Below are positions 6,583 through 17,055 of a stretch of DNA of 17,808 nucleotides, one piece after another. The notes beneath the pieces are model-generated. The model was given only the letters and a program-made list of their open reading frames with translations, did no database searches and had not been told where the DNA came from. This DNA is from Oscillospiraceae bacterium. Its GTDB lineage: Bacteria > Bacillota > Clostridia > Oscillospirales > Oscillospiraceae. Position numbers and translations under genes: made by a program. The stretch is taken from assembly GCA_017458025.1 (NCBI GenBank), contig JAFTGG010000021.1, forward strand, positions 1 to 17,808, given 5' to 3'. How positions within the stretch are numbered: the stretch's first letter is position 1; every line of letters begins with the position of its first letter.

Positions 6583-6611
6583 AAAATCGTATGACAAGAG
6601 AGGAACGCACG

Positions 6612-6920
6612 ATGGAAGTACAGACAAAAACCATAGACTGTACGCTGACCGTCAGCTTCCGCGGCGAGTTGGACCACCACGCCGCGCGGGAGACCGTGAC
6701 GGCGCTTGAGCGCGCGGTGGACGCGGCGCTGCCGATGCATCTGACGCTCGACTTCGGCGGCGTGACATTCATGGACAGCTCCGGCATCGCGGTGGTCATG
6801 CGCGCATTCCGGCGCATGAGCGCGCTCGGCGGCAGGCTGGAGCTGATCAACGTGCCGGCGCAGGCAAAAAAGGTATTCGACGCGGCGGGCATCACTGCCC
6901 GCGTACCGATGGGGACATAG
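6612..6920 (+). CDS. spoIIAA: Anti-sigma F factor antagonist SpoIIAA
   Basis: Small cytoplasmic STAS-domain protein (102 aa) that in its unphosphorylated form binds SpoIIAB-ADP and frees SigF in the forespore. The N-terminal strand has GELDHHAA (residues 18-25), as in Bacillus SpoIIAA. FMDSSGIAVVMRAF carries the phospho-acceptor Ser56, equivalent to Ser58 of Bacillus, after Asp55. A GGRLELINVPAQAKKVFDAAGI segment completes the fold. ATG 6612 is preferred over in-frame ATG 6591 because GAGAGGA (6598-6604) lies seven bases before it. It heads the spoIIA operon, but a repeat element and a hairpin separate it from spoIIAB. Confidence 0.96.
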   Translation: MEVQTKTIDCTLTVSFRGELDHHAARETVTALERAVDAALPMHLTLDFGGVTFMDSSGIAVVMRAFRRMSALGGRLELINVPAQAKKVFDAAGITARVPMGT

Positions 6921-6950
6921 GGCGTTCCCGCCAGGACAAGAAGAATATAC

Positions 6951-7110
6951 GGCAGCATCGCACAATTCGACGCGCGTATCTTGCTTGCAGAAATTTTCGT
7001 CATATATTCAAAAATGCCTTGCCGTGCGTCAGCATGCCCTGCGAAATTTTATGTCATCTGCCGAAATTTCCGGCGGCGCAATTTGCACGCGCGAATTATG
7101 CGGCGTTGTC
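6951..7110 (-). repeat. ~160-bp palindromic repeat element, family 2, copy D (inverted)
   Basis: Homologous to the reverse complement of copy C (5009-5169), with the strongest identity in the CATCTGCCGAAATTT core and in the ATCTTGCTTGCA and TTCGTCATA stretches. The ends are GGCAGCATCGCACAATTC (6951-6968) and the complement of GACAACGCCGCATAATTC (7093-7110). It sits inside the spoIIA operon between spoIIAA and spoIIAB, genes normally adjacent. Confidence 0.75.
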
Positions 7111-7116
7111 ATAAAA

Positions 7117-7152
7117 CGCTATTGCGCAGCCGCGCGCCGCCGCGCAATAGCG
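7117..7152 (+). terminator. Possible terminator or attenuator hairpin between spoIIAA and spoIIAB
   Basis: CGCTATTGCGC (7117-7127) and GCGCAATAGCG (7142-7152) make a perfect 11-bp stem with a very GC-rich 14-base loop, followed by CTATTTT. The T-tract is short and interrupted, so termination would be partial at best. It begins seven bases after repeat D and ends about 20 bases before the spoIIAB ribosome site. Confidence 0.45.
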
Positions 7153-7184
7153 CCTATTTTACGCATACAGCGTGGAGGTTTATT

Positions 7185-7631
7185 ATGAAAGTCAAACCGA
7201 ATAACTACATAGCGCTCGAATTTTTGAGCCGCAGCGTCAACGAGGGTTTTGCCCGCACGGCGGCGGCGGCGTTTGCAACCCAGCTCGACCCGACGCTCGA
7301 TGAGCTCGGCGACATCAAAACCGCCGTCAGCGAAGCGGTGACAAACGCCATCGTCCACGCGTATCCCGACGCGTTGGGCAAGATCTCGCTCCGCGCGAGC
7401 GTCTTTGACGGAAACGTGCTGGAGATTGTCGTGCGCGATTGGGGCTGCGGCATCGCGGACGTCGACAAGGCGCGCGAGCCGCTTTACACCACCGGCGGCG
7501 AGGAACGCAGCGGCATGGGCTTTACCATCATGGAGAGCTTCATGGACGCGTTGATCGTGCGCTCGAAGCCGGGGAAAGGCACGGTCGTGACGATGAAGCG
7601 GCGCATCGCGCAGCGCAGCGGGAGAAAATGA
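7185..7631 (+). CDS. spoIIAB: Anti-sigma F factor / serine kinase SpoIIAB
   Basis: 148-aa GHKL-type protein kinase that holds SigF inactive when ATP-bound and phosphorylates SpoIIAA. The ATP-binding Bergerat fold is clear: N-box IKTAVSEAVTNAIVHAYP (residues ~44-61), G1 box RDWGCGIAD (~84-92), and G2 region TGGEERSGMGFTIMESFMD (~103-121). ATG 7185 follows GTGGAGG (7172-7178); frame extensions upstream run through repeat D and are not coding. Its TGA overlaps the sigF start (ATGA), indicating translational coupling. Confidence 0.96.
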   Translation: MKVKPNNYIALEFLSRSVNEGFARTAAAAFATQLDPTLDELGDIKTAVSEAVTNAIVHAYPDALGKISLRASVFDGNVLEIVVRDWGCGIADVDKAREPLYTTGGEERSGMGFTIMESFMDALIVRSKPGKGTVVTMKRRIAQRSGRK

Positions 7632-8332
7632 GCGCGGACACCTTCGCGCTGCTCGAACGCGCGCAGCAGGGCGACGAATCCGCCTGCGAGCGCGTGCTGA
7701 CGGAGAACACGGGCCTCATCTGGAGCGTCGTCAAGCGCTACTACGGCCGTGGCGTCGAGCCGGACGACCTGTATCAGCTCGGTTGCCTCGGGTTCCTGAA
7801 AGCGGTGCGGGGCTTTGACCTCAACTATGGCACGCAGTTCTCGACCTACGCGGTGCCGAAGATCGCGGGCGAGATCCGCCGCTTCTTGAGGGACGACGGA
7901 CCGGTCAAGGTGGAGCGCAGCGTGCGGGAGAGGTCGTTCGCCGTCTACGCCGCGCGAGAAAAGCTGTGCGCGGAGCTTGGGCGCGAGCCAGCGCTCTCGG
8001 AGCTGTCGGAGGCGACGGGGCTTCGGGCGGAGGAGATCGCGGAGCTGGAGCTTGCGACCGCCGCGCCGGAGTCGCTGCAGCAGGAGCTCGGCGACGGGCT
8101 GACGCTGGAGAATACGCTCGGCAGCGAGTCGCCGGAGGACGGCATGGTGGAAAAGATCGCGCTTCGCGCGGGCATCGACGCGCTTCCGGAGCGCGAGCGC
8201 ATGACAATCCTGCTGCGGTTTTACAAGGGGCTGACGCAGGAGCAGACGGCGCGGGTGCTGGGCGTGTCGCAGGTGCAGGTGTCGCGGCTGGAGCGTCGGG
8301 CCTTGCAAAGCCTGCGGGAAACTTTGGGCTAG
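7628..8332 (+). CDS. sigF: RNA polymerase sporulation sigma factor SigF
   Basis: First forespore-specific sigma factor; 234 aa. Region 2 has NTGLIWSVVKRYYGRG, DDLYQLGCLGFLKAVRGFD and the -10 recognition helix FSTYAVPKIAGEIRRFLRDD. Region 3 includes VKVERSVRERSFAVYAAREK. Region 4 includes LPERERMTILLRFYKGLTQ and the helix-turn-helix RVLGVSQVQVSRLERRAL. SigG is the closest alternative by sequence type, but the position directly behind spoIIAA-spoIIAB identifies SigF. It starts four bases inside spoIIAB and ends 25 bases before the stop of a convergent gene; no clear terminator was seen between them. Confidence 0.96.
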   Translation: MSADTFALLERAQQGDESACERVLTENTGLIWSVVKRYYGRGVEPDDLYQLGCLGFLKAVRGFDLNYGTQFSTYAVPKIAGEIRRFLRDDGPVKVERSVRERSFAVYAAREKLCAELGREPALSELSEATGLRAEEIAELELATAAPESLQQELGDGLTLENTLGSESPEDGMVEKIALRAGIDALPERERMTILLRFYKGLTQEQTARVLGVSQVQVSRLERRALQSLRETLG

Positions 8333-9319: not shown

Positions 9320-10588
9320 TTATCCCACTCTGTCGAACAGCGATAGCTGCTCAAACTGCGCGGCGGGCAGCGCGGCGCGCTCGATTGCCATCAGGTTCGC
9401 CATGACGCCCGCATAGCTGAGCCGCAGCGGCGTTGCCAACTGTCCCGAACAGGTCAGAAAGTACTGCGCCCGCTTCATTACGACGCCGAGCTTGCGGAGG
9501 TCGTCGGCGTGGAGCGGGCCCGTGCGCCGAGCGACCAAAATGCGCTTTGCCGACACGACGCCGACGCCGGGTACGCGAAGCAGCGTTTCATAGTCCGCGC
9601 GGTTGACCTCGACGGGGAAGAACTCCGGATGCCGCAGCGCCCAACAGCATTTGGGATCGAGCCGCGGGTCGAAATCCGGCTGCGCTTCGTCGAGCAGTTC
9701 ACACGCGCGAAAGCCATAGAACCGCAGCAGCCAATCCGCCTGATACAGCCGATGCTCGCGAAGAAGCGGCGGTTTGGTGTCGAGCGACGGCAAAAGCGCG
9801 TTTTCGACCACCGGCACATAGGCGGAGTAAAACACGCGCTTCAGACGATATTGCCCGTAGAGCGATTCGGTCAGGTTCAAAATATGCCGGTCGCTCTCGC
9901 CGGACGCGCCGACAATGAGCTGCGTGCTCTGTCCCGCGGGCGCGAAACGCGGCGCGGAGCGGTACTTCACCAGCTCCGCCTTGCTTTCGGCGACTCCGTA
10001 GCGGATCTGCCGCATCGGCGCCAAAATGGCGCGCTTGGTCTTGTTTGGCGCAAGGCTTTTGAGCGACGCCTCGCTCGGCAGCTCAATGTTGACGCTCAGA
10101 CGGTCGGCGAGCAGCCCAAGCTGATAGACCAGCTCCGGCGAGGCGCCGGGAATCGCCTTGGCATGGATATAGCCGTTGAAGCGATACTCGCCGCGCAGAA
10201 GAGACAACGTGCGGATCATCAGCTCCGTCGTGCGGTCGGGAGAACCGAGCACGGCGGAGGAGAGGAACAGCCCCTCAATGTAGTTCCGGCGATAGAAACC
10301 TATGGTCAGCTCAGCCAATTCCTTTGGCGTAAAGGAAGTTCGCCTTACATCATTGGAGCGCCGGTTGACACAGTATTTGCAGTCGTACACGCAGTCGTTG
10401 GAGAGCAGGACCTTGAGCAGCGTTACGCAGCGCCCGTCGGCGGAGAAGGTGTGGCAGCATCCGGCGATAGACGACGACGTAGAGCCGATCATGCCCTCGA
10501 CGTGCCCGCGCCTTGCGCCGCTGGACGTACAGGCGGCGTCGTACTTTGCCGCGTCCGCGAGGATCGTGAGCTTGTCCAACAGCTCCAT
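9320..10588 (-). CDS. Putative DNA modification/repair radical SAM protein (TIGR03916 type)
   Basis: 422-aa radical-SAM enzyme. CVYDCKYCVNR at residues 66-76 is the CxxxCxxC motif that binds the SAM-reducing 4Fe-4S cluster. Upstream lie other family features (TILADAAKYDAACTSSG, GCCHTFSADGRCVTLLKVL). The C-terminal part contains a helix-hairpin-helix DNA-binding motif, LLRVPGVGVVSAKRIL. Members co-occur with a DUF4130 protein, here the next gene, and are thought to act on nucleic acid; the reaction is not known. ATG 10588 fits the family N-terminus, although its ribosome site is poor. A TTG at 10621 would overlap the upstream small gene. The start is seven bases after that gene's stop, so translation may be coupled. 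Confidence 0.9.
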   Translation of the reverse strand: MELLDKLTILADAAKYDAACTSSGARRGHVEGMIGSTSSSIAGCCHTFSADGRCVTLLKVLLSNDCVYDCKYCVNRRSNDVRRTSFTPKELAELTIGFYRRNYIEGLFLSSAVLGSPDRTTELMIRTLSLLRGEYRFNGYIHAKAIPGASPELVYQLGLLADRLSVNIELPSEASLKSLAPNKTKRAILAPMRQIRYGVAESKAELVKYRSAPRFAPAGQSTQLIVGASGESDRHILNLTESLYGQYRLKRVFYSAYVPVVENALLPSLDTKPPLLREHRLYQADWLLRFYGFRACELLDEAQPDFDPRLDPKCCWALRHPEFFPVEVNRADYETLLRVPGVGVVSAKRILVARRTGPLHADDLRKLGVVMKRAQYFLTCSGQLATPLRLSYAGVMANLMAIERAALPAAQFEQLSLFDRVG

Positions 10589-10595
10589 GAGCGTG

Positions 10596-10787
10596 TTATG
10601 CGGCGTAGAGCACGCTCTCAAGCTCCAGCTCGGCGCGCGGGAACTCGACCGTATTATCGCGTGCCGCGGCGTGACGCGCGCGGCGGCGCGTGGGCCGCGG
10701 CGTGTCGAGCCATTCGACGAGCTTCATGAGGTTTGCCGACGCAACGCCGACGCCGATGAAAACAAAACATAAGGTCATTCCGGTCAT
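10596..10787 (-). CDS. Small single-span membrane protein under SOS-like control
   Basis: 63-aa protein with no family I recognise. Residues ~1-23 form one hydrophobic segment (MTGMTLCFVFIGVGVASANL), followed by a linker, a very basic patch (RPTRRRARHAAAR, ~31-43) and an acidic end (EFPRAELELESVL). The gene is supported by a strong ribosome site (GGAGG ~9 bases before ATG 10787), a consensus promoter, and seven-base spacing to the radical-SAM repair gene. A short membrane protein behind an SOS-type operator recalls YneA or SidA, which block division after DNA damage, but there is no sequence similarity I can see. The role as a division inhibitor is a guess from context. Confidence 0.75.
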   Translation of the reverse strand: MTGMTLCFVFIGVGVASANLMKLVEWLDTPRPTRRRARHAAARDNTVEFPRAELELESVLYAA

Positions 10788-10805
10788 GTTGATTACCTCC
10801 GTAGA

Positions 10806-10870
10806 ATTTTTGTTCGAGTTTTATTATAAATCGAACATTCGTACTTGTCAAGAAAAAATCGAACAAAAAT
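10806..10870 (-). promoter_or_regulatory. Consensus SigA promoter with SOS-like operator and flanking inverted repeats
   Basis: On the minus strand TTGACA (10851-10846), a 17-base spacer and TATAAT (10828-10823) form a near-perfect promoter for the small membrane protein and the repair genes. The spacer holds GTACGAATGTTC (10844-10833), a one-mismatch form of the GAAC-N4-GTTC LexA-type box, with an inner CGAA-CA-TTCG symmetry. Two further GTTCGA/TCGAAC half-sites flank it inside a perfect 12-bp inverted repeat: ATTTTTGTTCGA at 10806-10817 and TCGAACAAAAAT at 10859-10870. The arrangement fits tight repression by a LexA-like protein. Confidence 0.75.
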
Positions 10871-10914
10871 TTGAAAAAAGTTTTAGACAGATCGGAGAAG
10901 CGTTTATCGCGCTA

Positions 10915-10943
10915 TTGAAAAAAGCCTTCCCTTCCGCTATAAT
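10915..10943 (+). promoter_or_regulatory. SigA-type promoter of the helicase gene
   Basis: TTGAAA (10915-10920), 17 bases, then TATAAT (10938-10943). Transcription would begin near 10950, with AGAGAGGG acting as ribosome site for ATG 10973. It diverges from the SOS-like promoter; the nearest TCGAAC site lies about 45 bases upstream of the -35. Confidence 0.85.
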
Positions 10944-10972: not shown

Positions 10973-13438
10973 ATGGACGATTTTACCTCCCGCTACTGCG
11001 CGGCGCGGCGCGCCGCCATAGCGCGGGATTTTGCGAGACTGAACCCCGAGCAGCGCAACGGCGTGTTGACGACCGAGGGCCCGCTGCTGCTGCTCGCCGG
11101 CGCGGGCAGCGGCAAGACGACGGTGCTCATCAACCGCGTCGCGAACATTCTGACCTACGGCCGCGGCAGCGACTGTGACACGGCGCCGGACTTTGCGACG
11201 GAGGACGACCTCGCGTTTTTGGAGAGCTACCCGCAGCATCCGACGCCGGACGAGCGCGGCCGCATGCTGCGCCTCTGCGCGGTGGAGCCGGCGAAGCCGT
11301 GGCAGGTGCTGGCGGTGACGTTTACGAACAAGGCGGCGAGCGAGCTGCGCGACCGCCTCGACGCGTTTGGCGTCGAGGGCGCGCGGGACGTGTGGGCGCT
11401 GACGTTCCACTCGGCCTGCGTACGCATTTTGCGCCGCGACATCGACAAGCTGGGCTTCTCGCTGGATTTCACCATCTACGACGCCGATGATTCCCGCCGC
11501 GTCGTGCGCGACATCGTGCGGGAGATGGACCTCGACGAAAAGGCCTTCCCGCCGCGCGAGGTGCTGGGCGTTATCTCCAAGGCGAAGGACGCGATGGAGA
11601 CCGCGCGCGACTTCGCGGCGCATTGGTCGGGCAGCGGCGATTGGCGCAAGGAGCGCATCGCGAAGATCTACGCCGCCTACGACCGGACGCTGCGCGAGGC
11701 GAACGCGCTCGACTTCGACGATATTTTGCTCCACGCCGTGACGCTGCTGCAAAGCGACGGGGAGGTGCGCGATTACTACCGCCGCAAGTTCCGCTACGTG
11801 CTCATCGACGAGTATCAGGACACGAACCGGCTGCAATATTTATTGATGAAGCAGCTCGTCGGGCCGAAAGGCAACATCTGCGTCGTGGGCGACGACGATC
11901 AGAGCATCTACCGCTTCCGCGGCGCGGATATCTCGAATATCCTCAACTTTGAGAAGGAATACAAGGGCACGCGCACGATCCGTTTGGAGCAGAATTACCG
12001 TTCGACGCAGCATATCCTCGACGCGGCGAACGCCGTCATCAGGAACAACGCCGGGCGCAAGGGCAAGACGCTGTGGACGGACGCGGGCGACGGCGATAAG
12101 GTGACGATCAAGACCGTGTTCAATGAGCAGGACGAGGCGAACTACGTCGTGTCGTCCATCATGAGCGACTTCGGCCGCGGCAGGAATTGGCGCGACAACG
12201 CGATCTTGTACCGCATGAACGCACAGTCGAACGCGCTCGAATACGCGTTCAAGCGCAACGGCGTGCCGTATCAGGTCGTGGGCGGCATGAATTTTTTCGA
12301 GCGCGCCGAGGTCAAGGACATGCTCTCGTACCTCGCGGTGCTGAACAATCCCGCGGACGACCTGCGCCTGCGGCGTATCATCAACAACCCGCCGCGCGGC
12401 ATCGGCGCGTCCAGCGTCGAGAACGTGCAGCGGCTTGCAACGGAGCAGGGCGTGCCGATGATCGAGATCGTCCGCCGCGCCGACGAGTACGCCGACTTGA
12501 GCCGCGCGGCGGCGAAGCTGCGGCAGTTCGCGGCGCTCATCGACGACCTGCGCGACGCGGCGGAGGACACGCCGCTGCCGGAGCTGTACGACCTCGTGTG
12601 CGACAAGAGCGGCTATACCCGCGCCTTGCGGGAGAAGAACGACATGGAGAGCCGCGGGCGGCTTGAGAACGTGCAGGAGCTCAAATCCAACATCGCCGCG
12701 TTCCTCGAAAACGACCCCGAGGACGCGACGCTTTCGGGCTTCCTCAACGAGATCGCGCTCTACACAGACCTCGACAGCGCGACGACGGACAACGCCGTCA
12801 CGATGATGACGATGCACAGCGCGAAGGGCTTGGAGTTCCCGTGCGTCTATGTCGTCGGCATGGAGGAAGGCGTGTTCCCCGGCCAGCGCGTCTACGGCGA
12901 CGACGAGGAGCTGGAGGAGGAGCGCCGGCTTTGCTACGTCGCGATGACCCGCGCGAAGGAGAAGCTGACGCTCACGAACGCGCGCCAGCGTATGCTGTTC
13001 GGACACACGACGCCCAACGCGCCCTCGCGCTTTTTGCGGGAGGTGCCGGAGGACGACGCCGATTGGCAGGGCAAGAGCGACCCCAACGCCCGCGCGTTTG
13101 GCACGCTCGCCGAGCACGGCTACGACGATTACGAAAACCATTTCGGCAGTTCGGGCTTCGGCTCCGCGCGAACGTCCCGCGCGAGCGCGGTCCATACGTC
13201 CTACGCCGCGCCGCGCAGAGAGCGCAAGCAGGCTGCCGCTCCCGCGCAGCGACCTGCGGGCGCGCCGCTGCCGCAGCTCAATCCCGGCGACCGCATCAAC
13301 CATAAGAGCTTCGGCGACGGCATGGTGACCGATGTGACGCCGACCGGCGGCGACGTGCTGCTGGAGGTGGCGTTCGACGACGTGGGCACCAAGAAGCTTC
13401 TGCTCAAATTTGCAGGGCAGCACATTACCAAGCTGTAA
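10973..13438 (+). CDS. pcrA: ATP-dependent DNA helicase PcrA/UvrD
   Basis: Superfamily 1A 3'-5' DNA helicase for excision repair, replication restart and removal of stalled complexes; 821 aa, slightly longer than the typical ~740. Motifs in order: Q-motif LNPEQ (23-27), Walker A AGAGSGKT (42-49), Ia VTFTNKAASEL, Walker B IDEYQDTN (~278), motif III VVGDDDQSIYRFRGA, motif IV LEQNYRST, motif V TMHSAKGLEFPCVYVVG, motif VI RRLCYVAMTRAKEKL. An acidic insert of ~50 residues lies between Walker A and motif Ia. The final ~45 residues (PGDRINHKSFGDGMVTDV onward) form the Tudor-like C-terminal domain that in PcrA contacts RNA polymerase. It is followed 12 bases later by an aroE-like gene. Confidence 0.96.
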   Translation: MDDFTSRYCAARRAAIARDFARLNPEQRNGVLTTEGPLLLLAGAGSGKTTVLINRVANILTYGRGSDCDTAPDFATEDDLAFLESYPQHPTPDERGRMLRLCAVEPAKPWQVLAVTFTNKAASELRDRLDAFGVEGARDVWALTFHSACVRILRRDIDKLGFSLDFTIYDADDSRRVVRDIVREMDLDEKAFPPREVLGVISKAKDAMETARDFAAHWSGSGDWRKERIAKIYAAYDRTLREANALDFDDILLHAVTLLQSDGEVRDYYRRKFRYVLIDEYQDTNRLQYLLMKQLVGPKGNICVVGDDDQSIYRFRGADISNILNFEKEYKGTRTIRLEQNYRSTQHILDAANAVIRNNAGRKGKTLWTDAGDGDKVTIKTVFNEQDEANYVVSSIMSDFGRGRNWRDNAILYRMNAQSNALEYAFKRNGVPYQVVGGMNFFERAEVKDMLSYLAVLNNPADDLRLRRIINNPPRGIGASSVENVQRLATEQGVPMIEIVRRADEYADLSRAAAKLRQFAALIDDLRDAAEDTPLPELYDLVCDKSGYTRALREKNDMESRGRLENVQELKSNIAAFLENDPEDATLSGFLNEIALYTDLDSATTDNAVTMMTMHSAKGLEFPCVYVVGMEEGVFPGQRVYGDDEELEEERRLCYVAMTRAKEKLTLTNARQRMLFGHTTPNAPSRFLREVPEDDADWQGKSDPNARAFGTLAEHGYDDYENHFGSSGFGSARTSRASAVHTSYAAPRRERKQAAAPAQRPAGAPLPQLNPGDRINHKSFGDGMVTDVTPTGGDVLLEVAFDDVGTKKLLLKFAGQHITKL

Positions 13439-14375: not shown

Positions 14376-14547
14376 ATTTCTTCCCCGCGAGGAAGTAGTC
14401 GCTGTTTCCCGGGTGATAGAACGGGCAGGCATCGCGGCGCTTTTCCATCAGCGCGGCGTACTCGTCCTCGTCGAGGTCCTGCTCGCAGATATAGTCGTCG
14501 TACTCCTCGTCATAGGCGTAGTAGACGCAGTCTTCGCAGATGCTCAT
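14374..14547 (-). CDS. Small four-cysteine acidic protein coupled to the hydrogenase (DUF6472-like)
   Basis: 57-aa protein starting MSICEDCVYYAYDEEYDDYI and ending SDYFLAGKK. Cysteines are at residues 4, 7, 21 and 41, spacing that suggests a small metal site. The middle is strongly acidic (EQDLDEDEYAALMEKRRDACP). The pattern C-x2-C...C...LDEDEY...CP.. resembles the small Clostridia family I recall as DUF6472; this is from memory, not a search. Its ATG overlaps the hydrogenase stop codon (ATGA), so translation is probably coupled. Its stop lies in the terminator. It is short enough to be missed by gene callers. The function is unknown; a role in hydrogenase or Fe-S handling is only suggested by position. 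Confidence 0.8.
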   Translation of the reverse strand: MSICEDCVYYAYDEEYDDYICEQDLDEDEYAALMEKRRDACPFYHPGNSDYFLAGKK

Positions 14548-16268
14548 TTGCCGGACGCTTCCTCGTGGCCCTCGCCGGCGTAGGAGTGGTGCAGCAGCTC
14601 GTGCCGCCGCTCGGTGAGGTCCTCGGCATACATCGTGTTGAGCACGGGGTTGCGCTCGCTGCGCTTGAACATCGCGCTCTTGTCGATTTCATACAGGCCC
14701 GCCGCGCGCTTGAGCTTGGTGGACATCAGCGCATAGGGCTGTCCGGCACCGCCGACGCAGCCGGAGCGGCAGGACATGACTTCGACGATGTCCACCTGCA
14801 CCTCGCCCGACTCGATCTGGTCGAGCAGGGTCTTGGCGTTGCCGAGTCCGTTGACGACCGCGACGCGCACGTCGCGCTCGCCGATCTTCACGGTGGCGAA
14901 GCGGATGGGGTCTGTGCCGCGCAAGCCGCTGTGCTCGATCATGCGCAGCGCGTTCTTGGACTTGTCGGGCAGGCAGTGGCGCACCACCGCTTCGGCGACG
15001 CCGCCGGTGGAGCCGAAAATCTCCGCCGCGCCGGAGCCCATGCCGTAGGGGAGGTCGGGGGACTCCTTTTCGAGCTGCTCAAACAGGATACCGGATTCCT
15101 CCATCATGCGGATGACCTCCTGCGTCGTGAGCACAAGGTCGACGTTCGGCACGCCGTCGCGGCTGAACTCGGGGCGCGCCGCCTCCATCTTCTTTGCCGT
15201 GCAGGGCATGATGGCGATGTGGAAGGTCTTGCGGCCGTCCTCGCTGTCCTTTTTGGCGTAGCGGTCCTTGAGCACCGTCGCGAACATCTGCATGGGTGAA
15301 AGCGCCGAGGAGAGGTTCTTCAAAAACTGCGGGCGCTCCTGCTCGACATAGCGTACCCACGCGGGGCAGCAGGAGGTCATCAGCGGCAGGTTCTCGCCGG
15401 ACTCGAGGCGGCGCATGAACTCGTCGCCTTCCTCGCGCACGGTCAGGTCCGCGCCGAAGATGGTGTCGTACACCTCGTCCGCGCCCATGATCTTGAGCGC
15501 CGAAACGAGCTGGTCGAGCACGTTTTGCCCGGGCGGGATACGGTACGCTTCGCCCAGCGCGACGCGCACGGCGGGCGCGATCTGGACGACGACGCGCTTG
15601 GTGGGGTCGTGCAGCGCCTTCCACGCGAGGCCGATCTCGTTTTTGACCGTGATCGCGCCGGTGGTGCAAACCGCCGAGCACTGCCCGCAACTGACGCAGT
15701 GCGTCGCGGAGAGCTTGGCGTCGCCCGCGGTGGCGATGCGCAGGTTCGGCCCGCGGCCGACGAAGCGCAGGATGCTCATGCCCTGCATCTCCTCGCACAC
15801 GCGCACACAGTCGCCGCAGAGGATACACTTGCTCATATCCACGCTGATCGCCTTGGAGGAGTGGTCTTCCTCGTACTTCGGGCGCGTGTCGTCGAAGCGG
15901 ATATCGTGGATACCGAAGCGCACCGCCATGTTCTGCAGACGGCAATCGCCGTTTTTCGGGCAGGTGGTGCAGTCGCGGCAGTGCGCCGCAAGAATCAGCT
16001 CAAGGATCGTGCGGCGGTAACGCAGCAGGCGCGAGGTGTTGGTGCGGATCCTGAGCCCGTCGCGCGGCGCCATCTGGCATGCCGCCTCGATGCCGCCCTT
16101 GTCGTCCTCGACCATGCACATACGGCACGCGCCGTAGACCGACAGGTCGGAATGGAAGCAGAAGTTCGGCATTTCGACGCCCGCCTTCTGGCAGACCTCG
16201 AGCACGCTCTTGTGGCTGTCGTCGAACTCCACGCGGATATTGTCCACATACATGATGCCGTTAGCCAT
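14544..16268 (-). CDS. hydA: [FeFe] hydrogenase catalytic subunit (HydA/HndD type)
   Basis: 574-aa cytoplasmic hydrogenase for reversible proton reduction to H2. N to C: a 2Fe-2S domain (Cys at ~37, 48, 51, 64); the His-Cys3 4Fe-4S motif HCRDCTTCPKNGDC (~96-109); two 4Fe-4S motifs CILCGDCVRVC and CVSCGQCSAVC (~148-201); then the H-cluster domain with L1 TSCCPAW (~298-304), L2 MPCTAKKMEA (~354-363) and L3 EVMSCRSGCVGGAGQP (~496-510). In L3 one of the usual glycines is Ala. The C-terminal HELLHHSY resembles the small-subunit tail. ATG 16268 follows GAGGAGGTGA and overlaps the upstream gene by eight bases; a TTG one codon earlier is less likely. No maturases (HydE, F, G) are in the window. Confidence 0.95.
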   Translation of the reverse strand: MANGIMYVDNIRVEFDDSHKSVLEVCQKAGVEMPNFCFHSDLSVYGACRMCMVEDDKGGIEAACQMAPRDGLRIRTNTSRLLRYRRTILELILAAHCRDCTTCPKNGDCRLQNMAVRFGIHDIRFDDTRPKYEEDHSSKAISVDMSKCILCGDCVRVCEEMQGMSILRFVGRGPNLRIATAGDAKLSATHCVSCGQCSAVCTTGAITVKNEIGLAWKALHDPTKRVVVQIAPAVRVALGEAYRIPPGQNVLDQLVSALKIMGADEVYDTIFGADLTVREEGDEFMRRLESGENLPLMTSCCPAWVRYVEQERPQFLKNLSSALSPMQMFATVLKDRYAKKDSEDGRKTFHIAIMPCTAKKMEAARPEFSRDGVPNVDLVLTTQEVIRMMEESGILFEQLEKESPDLPYGMGSGAAEIFGSTGGVAEAVVRHCLPDKSKNALRMIEHSGLRGTDPIRFATVKIGERDVRVAVVNGLGNAKTLLDQIESGEVQVDIVEVMSCRSGCVGGAGQPYALMSTKLKRAAGLYEIDKSAMFKRSERNPVLNTMYAEDLTERRHELLHHSYAGEGHEEASGK

Positions 16269-17055
16269 CAATCGTCACCTCCTCGATGGCGCCGAAGGCG
16301 CACAGCTCGATACATGTGTAGCACTTGACGCACTTCTCCGGATCAATGTGGAACGGGCTCTTGAGCTCGCCGGAAATCGCCTCCGCGTGACAGGAGCGCG
16401 CGCAGCGCGAGCAGCCCTTGCACTTCTCGGGGTCGATGACGATGCGCTTCCTGTCGTACGGCACGCCGTCGCCGGGGGCGATGGGGAGCCTCGTTTCCTG
16501 CTTGCACAGCGGGCAGTTGCCCTCGATGTGGTTCTGGAAATCGTCCGCGAACGCGCTTGCCGCGACGTTCATCGTCGAGGCGCAGCCTTTGCCGAGCGAG
16601 CAGAACGCGGTCATGTGCACGACCTCGCCGAGTTCGAGCATCATGCCGACGGCCGCGTCGTCCGCCTTACATTCGACGAGGCTGCCCATCAGCTCCGCCA
16701 TGCGCTTCGTGCCCTCGCGGCAGGAAACGCACTTGCCGCAGAAATCCGCCTGCGTCGCGCGCAGAAAGCTGTAAGTCACGTCGACCATGCAGCGGTCCTC
16801 GTCGAGCACGGTGATGACGCCGTCGCCGCGGCGGCAGCCCCAGGGCGCGAGCGCCTTGAAGTCCAGCGGCAGGTCCAGCTCGTCCGCGGTGACAAGACCG
16901 CCGGACGGGCCGCCGATCTGCATCGCCTTGAACGCCTTGCCGTTCGCCATGCCGCCGCCGAGCTCCTCGACGATCTGACGCAGCGTCGTGCCTTTTTCGA
17001 CCTCAATGCGGCCGGGGCGGGCGACGTCGCCTTTGAGTAAGTATGTTTGTGCCAT
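16261..17055 (-). CDS. Flavin-free NuoF/HydB-like iron-sulfur protein
   Basis: 264-aa protein matching only the C-terminal part of NuoF/HydB/HndC (normally ~540-630 aa). It starts right at the SLBB domain (TYLLKGDVARPGRIEVEKG, residues ~4-65; GGPSGGLVT). The 4Fe-4S domain follows (FCGKCVSCREGTKRM, Cys106/109/112, plus Cys152 in AFCSLGKG). Then comes an extra CPLC pair (~181-184) and two ferredoxin-type clusters (CKGCSRCARSC ~212-222; CVKCYTCIELC ~242-252). The thioredoxin-like 2Fe-2S domain and the FMN/NAD(H)-binding domain with its GRGGAGFP loop are absent. An in-frame TAG one codon before ATG 17055 and a GGAG ribosome site show the short form is intended. It probably passes electrons between the hydrogenase and a soluble carrier such as ferredoxin. 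Confidence 0.88.
   Translation of the reverse strand: MAQTYLLKGDVARPGRIEVEKGTTLRQIVEELGGGMANGKAFKAMQIGGPSGGLVTADELDLPLDFKALAPWGCRRGDGVITVLDEDRCMVDVTYSFLRATQADFCGKCVSCREGTKRMAELMGSLVECKADDAAVGMMLELGEVVHMTAFCSLGKGCASTMNVAASAFADDFQNHIEGNCPLCKQETRLPIAPGDGVPYDRKRIVIDPEKCKGCSRCARSCHAEAISGELKSPFHIDPEKCVKCYTCIELCAFGAIEEVTIDG

Follow-up and report, generated by a model that had tools for sequence, protein, structure and literature searches.

What kind of operon carries a 63-aa membrane protein directly in front of a radical-SAM/DUF4130 gene pair, and what controls it? The question is raised by a 17,808-nucleotide stretch of DNA from an Oscillospiraceae bacterium (assembly GCA_017458025.1, contig JAFTGG010000021.1), hereafter called the window, which is contig C24 of a 2.01-Mb assembly comprising 282 contigs and 89% complete. 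A first-pass annotation, made from the letters of the window, had proposed an SOS-controlled operon in which the small protein may delay division while the enzyme pair acts on DNA. Elsewhere in the window, ORF reading alone indicates sporulation-type genes, a sigE-like factor (1008-1748) and a spoIIAA-spoIIAB-sigF-like set (6591-8332), and [FeFe]-hydrogenase-type subunit ORFs were recognised by reading on the minus strand (14544-17055). Two pairs of inverted intergenic repeats lie near gene borders, at 685-867/6328-6510 (183 nt, 91% complementary) and at 5009-5110/7009-7110 (102 nt, 79%); both are possibly copies of a dispersed element.

The promoter described in the first-pass annotation, TTGACA-17-TATAAT on the minus strand, was recovered at 10851-10823 with 12/12 matches, and GTACGAATGTTC indeed stands inside its spacer (Table 1). 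GTTCGA/TCGAAC half-sites are likewise present on both sides, but they do not decorate one operator, as had been thought; they are parts of two further LexA-type boxes, which rules out a single operator with decorative half-sites. The inverted repeat reported as perfect over 12 bp actually spans 18 nt with 94% complementarity (10805-10822/10854-10871) and appeared because its arms fall in the outer boxes 1 and 3. The consensus of Gram-positive LexA boxes was used to recognise these 14-mers; box 2 here has the form GTAC-N4-GTTC, and several relatives have GAAC-N4-GTTC or AAAC-N4-GTTC in its place. A GAAC-N4-GTTC-like box that overlaps the promoter is the mark of a Gram-positive LexA operon, and three such boxes are found at this locus. 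A promoter scan of the window detected no promoter-like site between the radical-SAM and DUF4130 genes, and gave the divergent PcrA/UvrD-type helicase gene a site of its own, TTGAAA-17-TATAAT.

Table 1. Features of the operon and its divergent neighbour, in window positions
Feature	Position	Strand	Basis or remark
LexA-type operator 1 (CAAATTTTTGTTCG)	10860..10873	-	upstream of -35; box score
-35 hexamer TTGACA	10846..10851	-	promoter scan; identical in 27/27 loci
LexA-type operator 2 (AGTACGAATGTTCG)	10832..10845	-	in spacer; pattern match and box score
-10 hexamer TATAAT	10823..10828	-	promoter scan; exact in 22/27 loci
LexA-type operator 3 (CGAACAAAAATTCT)	10803..10816	-	about the expected start point (inferred); box score
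Shine-Dalgarno GGAGG of small ORF	10796..10800	-	sequence
63-aa single-span membrane protein, conserved small ORF	10596..10787	-	ORF, conservation
TIGR03916 radical-SAM/helix-hairpin-helix protein, 422 aa, putative DNA modification/repair	9320..10588	-	profile match
TIGR03915/DUF4130 protein, 282 aa	8358..9206	-	profile match
Divergent PcrA/UvrD-type helicase, outside operon	10973..13438	+	profile match; own promoter-like site 10915-10943

The triple operator is a conserved arrangement. A TIGR03916 search of 60 genomes, including that of the window, matched 39 at E <= 0.001 (34 of them above the cut-off), and upstream DNA was examined at 37 TIGR03916 loci (30 + 7). A search with the small protein contributed eight more loci from three more genera, where the N-terminal sequence served to identify the TIGR03916-type gene. 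The full promoter set comprises 27 loci from 27 genomes and five genera, and box scoring took the best 14-mer at most a few bases away from its expected position, with a threshold score of at least 11. At all 27 loci TTGACA and the 17-base spacing are retained, the promoters matching at 12/12 or 11/12 positions, and box 2 starts six bases past the first base of the -35 hexamer with a score of at least 11. Box 1 precedes box 2 by 27 (nine loci), 28 (17 loci) or 29 bases (one locus) and scores at least 11 in 25/27 loci; box 3 follows box 2 by 29 bases and reaches this score equally often (25/27). The triple box at fixed spacing occurs in 23 of the 27 loci, the exceptions being a weak operator 1 in G002 and G004 and a degraded or displaced operator 3 in G008 and G010. 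Within the genus, LexA-type 14-mers stand in threes upstream of TIGR03916 loci. First-order Markov resampling of the 27 promoters produced the triple in 0 of 27,000 trials and two of the three boxes in 33 (score at least 11).

LexA represses SOS genes, and RecA-driven cleavage of LexA induces them. Looking for the same arrangement before lexA and recA, as the first-pass annotation had proposed, gave different answers for the two genes. At lexA, AAAC-N4-GTTGC lies over the -35 hexamer at all 18 genus loci examined (17 genomes, that of the window included); the window organism's own lexA carries GAAACGAATGTTGC across -35, and the 9-mer ACGAATGTT is common to it and box 2. Overall, an AAC-N4-GTT box is present at 24 of the 27 lexA loci examined, and in G045, one of the three that lack it, the gene start is uncertain; these 27 were taken from 30 loci, with the weak matches L066, L067 and L069 left out, as were weaker second PF01726 matches and further weak matches without a locus. 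At recA, the patterns tried found no box before the organism's own gene (L001), which sits close behind another gene; a LexA operon of this type does not require one there. The Clostridioides difficile recA operator known from LexA binding work contains GAACAAATGTTT, with the same core, according to the accessible part of that report (PMC4234289). The lexA promoters of G007 (L052) and G009 (L054) do not differ over the 130 bases compared, and a further lexA locus of G007 (L068) is unlike them; assembly G007 is possibly contaminated.

Operator 2 is the sole match to the pattern MRWACRWWYGTTYG in the 2.01-Mb assembly and the reversed control pattern gives two; the uniqueness of this match alone is not significance. 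In eight genus genomes, the strict pattern gave 18 strand-matches versus 23 for the reversed control. A loose pattern gave 404 forward and 403 reverse matches versus 329 and 301 for its control. Genome-wide counts with no excess for the strict pattern and a modest one for the loose pattern do not define a regulon, and the argument therefore rests on where the boxes are placed. The strict matches fall at 16 places, of which five are this operon, two precede Y-family polymerase genes (L098; L107, where the place is divergent from a gene judged SRAP-like by reading), one precedes a YpsA gene (L109), four are near phage- or ICE-type genes as judged by reading (L094, L099, L102, L108), and four, inside unrelated genes or where such genes begin, resemble chance matches (L100, L101, L105, L106). 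At L109, the promoter of the YpsA/SLOG-family gene (1537-2040) has a LexA-type box in its spacer, in the layout of box 2.

At the threshold used, the boxes also follow the presence of lexA. A box scoring at least 12 stands at TIGR03916 loci in 11/13 genera with a lexA match versus 1/7 without one (p 0.0044; 37 loci), and in 24/29 versus 2/8 when counted by genome (p 0.0041), an association that disappears when the threshold is raised to 13 (p 0.11 for genera and 0.40 for genomes); in this test the score of G017 comes from an intragenic 14-mer and not from its operator, and G002, G004 and G005 fall below the threshold though their promoters align. The boxes might instead bind another regulator or arise by chance, as the pattern counts equal to control would allow, and G036 and G003 carry boxes without a lexA match in assemblies that are 80% and 68% complete; this is highly improbable in view of the same core at every genus lexA locus examined, which is found before polymerase genes as well, and of the absence of the triple from the resamplings. 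The lexA core, the conservation of the operators, the lexA-box association at the threshold used and the core of the C. difficile recA operator together give good support to SOS control of the operon. From established SOS biology, it is very probable that LexA represses the operon and that damage would induce it.

The two larger genes are firmly assigned to their families. The radical-SAM protein matches TIGR03916 (rSAM_link_UDG) with 633.6 bits against a curated cut-off of 343.5, and its neighbour matches TIGR03915 with 208 bits (cut-off 112.25) and PF13566 with 148.9 (27). Homologues of the small protein lie beside the same pair, as the first-pass annotation would have it: the order small ORF - TIGR03916-type gene - DUF4130 gene is found at 27/27 loci. 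The DUF4130 gene comes next in 42/45 loci, among them all 27 with the small ORF, several loci being cut by their end, and 4-15 bases separate the small ORF from the radical-SAM ATG in the 17 loci, of 19, at which this gap was located. In other genera, the pair occurs with one or two boxes and without the small ORF (L004, L008, L012, L014, L032); therefore, the small protein has either joined an SOS-controlled pair or disappeared from one, and it is not essential to the pair. On the basis of family annotation, the radical-SAM/DUF4130 pair is predicted to act on DNA. We take COG4277 to correspond to TIGR03916 and the COG1573-COG4277 pair to be related to the present one. According to the accessible portions of the sources, DUF4130 is an enzyme predicted to have a role related to mutagenesis, with links to uracil glycosylases and to radical-SAM proteins resembling SplB (PMC3765255), and the COG1573-COG4277 pair is SOS-regulated in other phyla (PMC8565304). 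Like the present pair, these are putative DNA repair pairs; the same portions mention no small membrane protein, and their LexA type and box differ from those described here. A literature search, with subscription journals mostly outside it, found no paper on the small protein or the triple operator, and none on TIGR03916/TIGR03915 by name. The new elements here are the small protein and the three operators that precede it.

The small ORF, at 10787-10596, ends seven bases ahead of the radical-SAM ATG at 10588, exactly as claimed, and it is conserved as a protein in 18/18 genus genomes, with pN below pS, invariant residues and a database family, so that a chance ORF is ruled out. A Shine-Dalgarno-like sequence precedes it in all 18 genus genomes and in G022. 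Over codons 4-31, pN is 0.32 versus a pS of 0.59, with pN below pS in 166 of 171 non-independent pairs; the ORF is under purifying selection. M1, G12, M21 and D28 are invariant across the 19 members compared, and among 128 relatives (120 of 160 database matches plus eight) G is kept in 128, D or E in 128, and M and P in 123 each. The database holds 160 relatives, and none of the 120 listed bears a functional name. The basic patch and acidic tail noted in the first-pass annotation fared unequally: the tail is real in the window protein but is a variant feature, since 13 of the 19 members (the window protein being one of the 19) finish after the basic patch, at 37-43 aa. The 120 listed of the 160 database relatives include 68 forms shorter than 50 aa and 50 long forms of at least 56 aa; 46 of these 50 long forms end in -AA, a C-terminus that in our own reading is a candidate degron.

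In the 19 members, the best 19-residue hydrophobic stretch starts at residue 5-9, no charged residue precedes the span and the net charge after it is 0 to +6; the positive-inside rule predicts a cytoplasmic C-terminus. An AlphaFold2 model (mean pLDDT 78.1, pTM 0.34), taken for helices only, has a confident helix at 2-28 and weaker helices at 36-44 and 48-62. The 19 members have no significant family match in Pfam (best E 0.045) or PHROGs (best E 0.012), and the window protein has none in NCBIfam (best E 0.058). LysM is not among the Pfam families found in the 19 members at E up to 10, nor is any toxin family; only DUF1656, Tom6 and EMC3_TMCO1 appear (E at least 0.045, one member each).

Thirteen of 250 family genomes drawn match the small protein; they represent five genera, and each has a copy before a TIGR03916-type gene. 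Among 245 genomes drawn across the order, only the window's own genome and G004 match. Both of these searches scored at most 25 candidates per genome, so that absence in either is not firm. Four named database loci with the small protein come from Oscillospiraceae/Ruminococcaceae MAGs, one of them titled as goat rumen, and are probably the loci of G007, G009, G013 and G017. Eight of the 21 small-protein matches from family genomes sit outside the operon, and seven of these eight, all but the paralogue L133, have no box in the 200 bases scanned upstream. L127, L132 and L130 adjoin genes matching RecE-like/Gp157-type phage families, L128 adjoins replication genes, L131 resembles L130 by reading, and L129, L133 and L134 lie elsewhere. 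The match stands near 1501 in L127, L130, L131 and L132 and at 219 in L128, a box-free relative that belongs to the window's own genome. L133 and L134, also matched near 1501, contain weak relatives whose ending, LLMR-x-IIWLDGA, sets them apart from the operon copies in the part beyond the span; they possibly form a separate group of small membrane proteins. A viral reservoir was considered and set aside, as none of 117 IMG/VR pattern matches was confirmed as a relative (one scan), yet phage-type neighbourhoods do occur.

A LexA-type operator combined with a single transmembrane helix, here a predicted one, is what characterises SidA, YneA and SosA, and both are found at this locus. These three are SOS-induced single-span division inhibitors (PMC4211646, PMC13396833, PMC6851548), described here from the accessible parts of the cited papers. 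SidA of Caulobacter is a 29-aa, LexA-regulated inner-membrane protein whose partner is FtsW (PMC4211646); like the small protein, it is tiny, SOS-induced and single-span, without a large domain, whereas it comes from a different phylum with no demonstrated sequence relation, and the small protein is the first gene of a three-operator repair operon. YneA of Bacillus subtilis, likewise an SOS-induced single-span membrane protein of a Gram-positive bacterium, binds FtsW via its span (PMC13396833) but requires an extracellular C-terminal LysM; the small protein lacks a LysM and is predicted to have its C-terminus in the cytoplasm. SosA of Staphylococcus aureus (77 aa) is also small, SOS-induced and single-span, and its extracellular C-terminus is needed for activity and turnover (PMC6851548), in contrast to the basic, predicted cytoplasmic C-terminus of the small protein.

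Promoter, operators, operator conservation, protein family and gene order, as read from the sequence, are probably best explained as a whole by an SOS operon that couples a damage-induced small membrane protein to an enzyme pair. In an undamaged cell, LexA bound before -35, in the spacer and about the start point would keep the promoter shut; upon DNA damage, RecA-stimulated cleavage of LexA would free it. One message would then yield the tiny single-span membrane protein first, followed by the radical-SAM/helix-hairpin-helix protein and the DUF4130 protein, for both of which repair or modification of DNA is predicted. With three operators placed on a consensus promoter, silence would be tight and induction strong, a pattern to be expected where the product is harmful or costly. 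The phrase "three SOS boxes" also occurs in the accessible text of a paper on RecN (PMC10714372). The small protein would insert into the membrane with its basic tail in the cytoplasm and transiently slow division while the enzyme pair works. By analogy with SidA, YneA and SosA, the chances appear evenly balanced that a protein so inserted transiently slows division or growth. The lack of LysM, the predicted C-in topology and the boxed pairs without the small ORF elsewhere count against an inhibitor role; the box-free relatives beside phage-type genes fit an inhibitor and prove nothing.

TisB is an SOS toxin, and Fst has the general form of a small membrane toxin. A short single-span peptide with a charged tail under tight LexA control could also be a toxin of this type, SOS-induced and lowering the proton motive force, so that dormancy would replace a block of the divisome. 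TisB is likewise a small peptide of the membrane with a link to the SOS response, and the box-free relatives near phage-type genes would suit a toxin. Such a role is nevertheless unlikely: the 19 members match no Pfam toxin family at the permissive E-value limit given above, and the stretch of about 29 bases from the inferred start point to the start codon leaves no room for a TisB-like structured leader, the small protein differing from TisB in its short untranslated leader, its operon partners and its lack of a family match. To our knowledge, type I toxins are not usually co-expressed with a repair pair, which further weakens this reading.

Alternatively, the small protein may serve the enzyme pair as a membrane anchor or regulator, or be a short upstream cistron translationally coupled to the radical-SAM gene. 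Every boxed copy found directly precedes a TIGR03916-type gene (13/13 genomes), and the short gap to the radical-SAM ATG also speaks for such a role. This role is rather improbable when set against the boxed pairs that manage without the small ORF and the box-free relatives that lie away from the pair, and protein-level conservation argues against a mere leader. The reading as a damage-induced inhibitor of division or growth extends to a more tentative proposal, which we hold at somewhat less than even confidence: the small proteins may constitute a new family of SOS-induced membrane inhibitors in gut bacteria of Oscillospiraceae type, distinguished by three-operator control at fixed spacing, co-expression with the enzyme pair, clearance after repair by way of the conserved C-terminus, and sharing with phage-type elements that may stall the host by means of it.

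As far as the literature search showed, the pause in division that follows DNA damage has been little described in gut and rumen Clostridia. The compact, conserved three-operator cassette is a concrete candidate for such a damage-induced division pause. Through its constant association with TIGR03916/DUF4130, it also connects that enzyme pair with the response to DNA damage.
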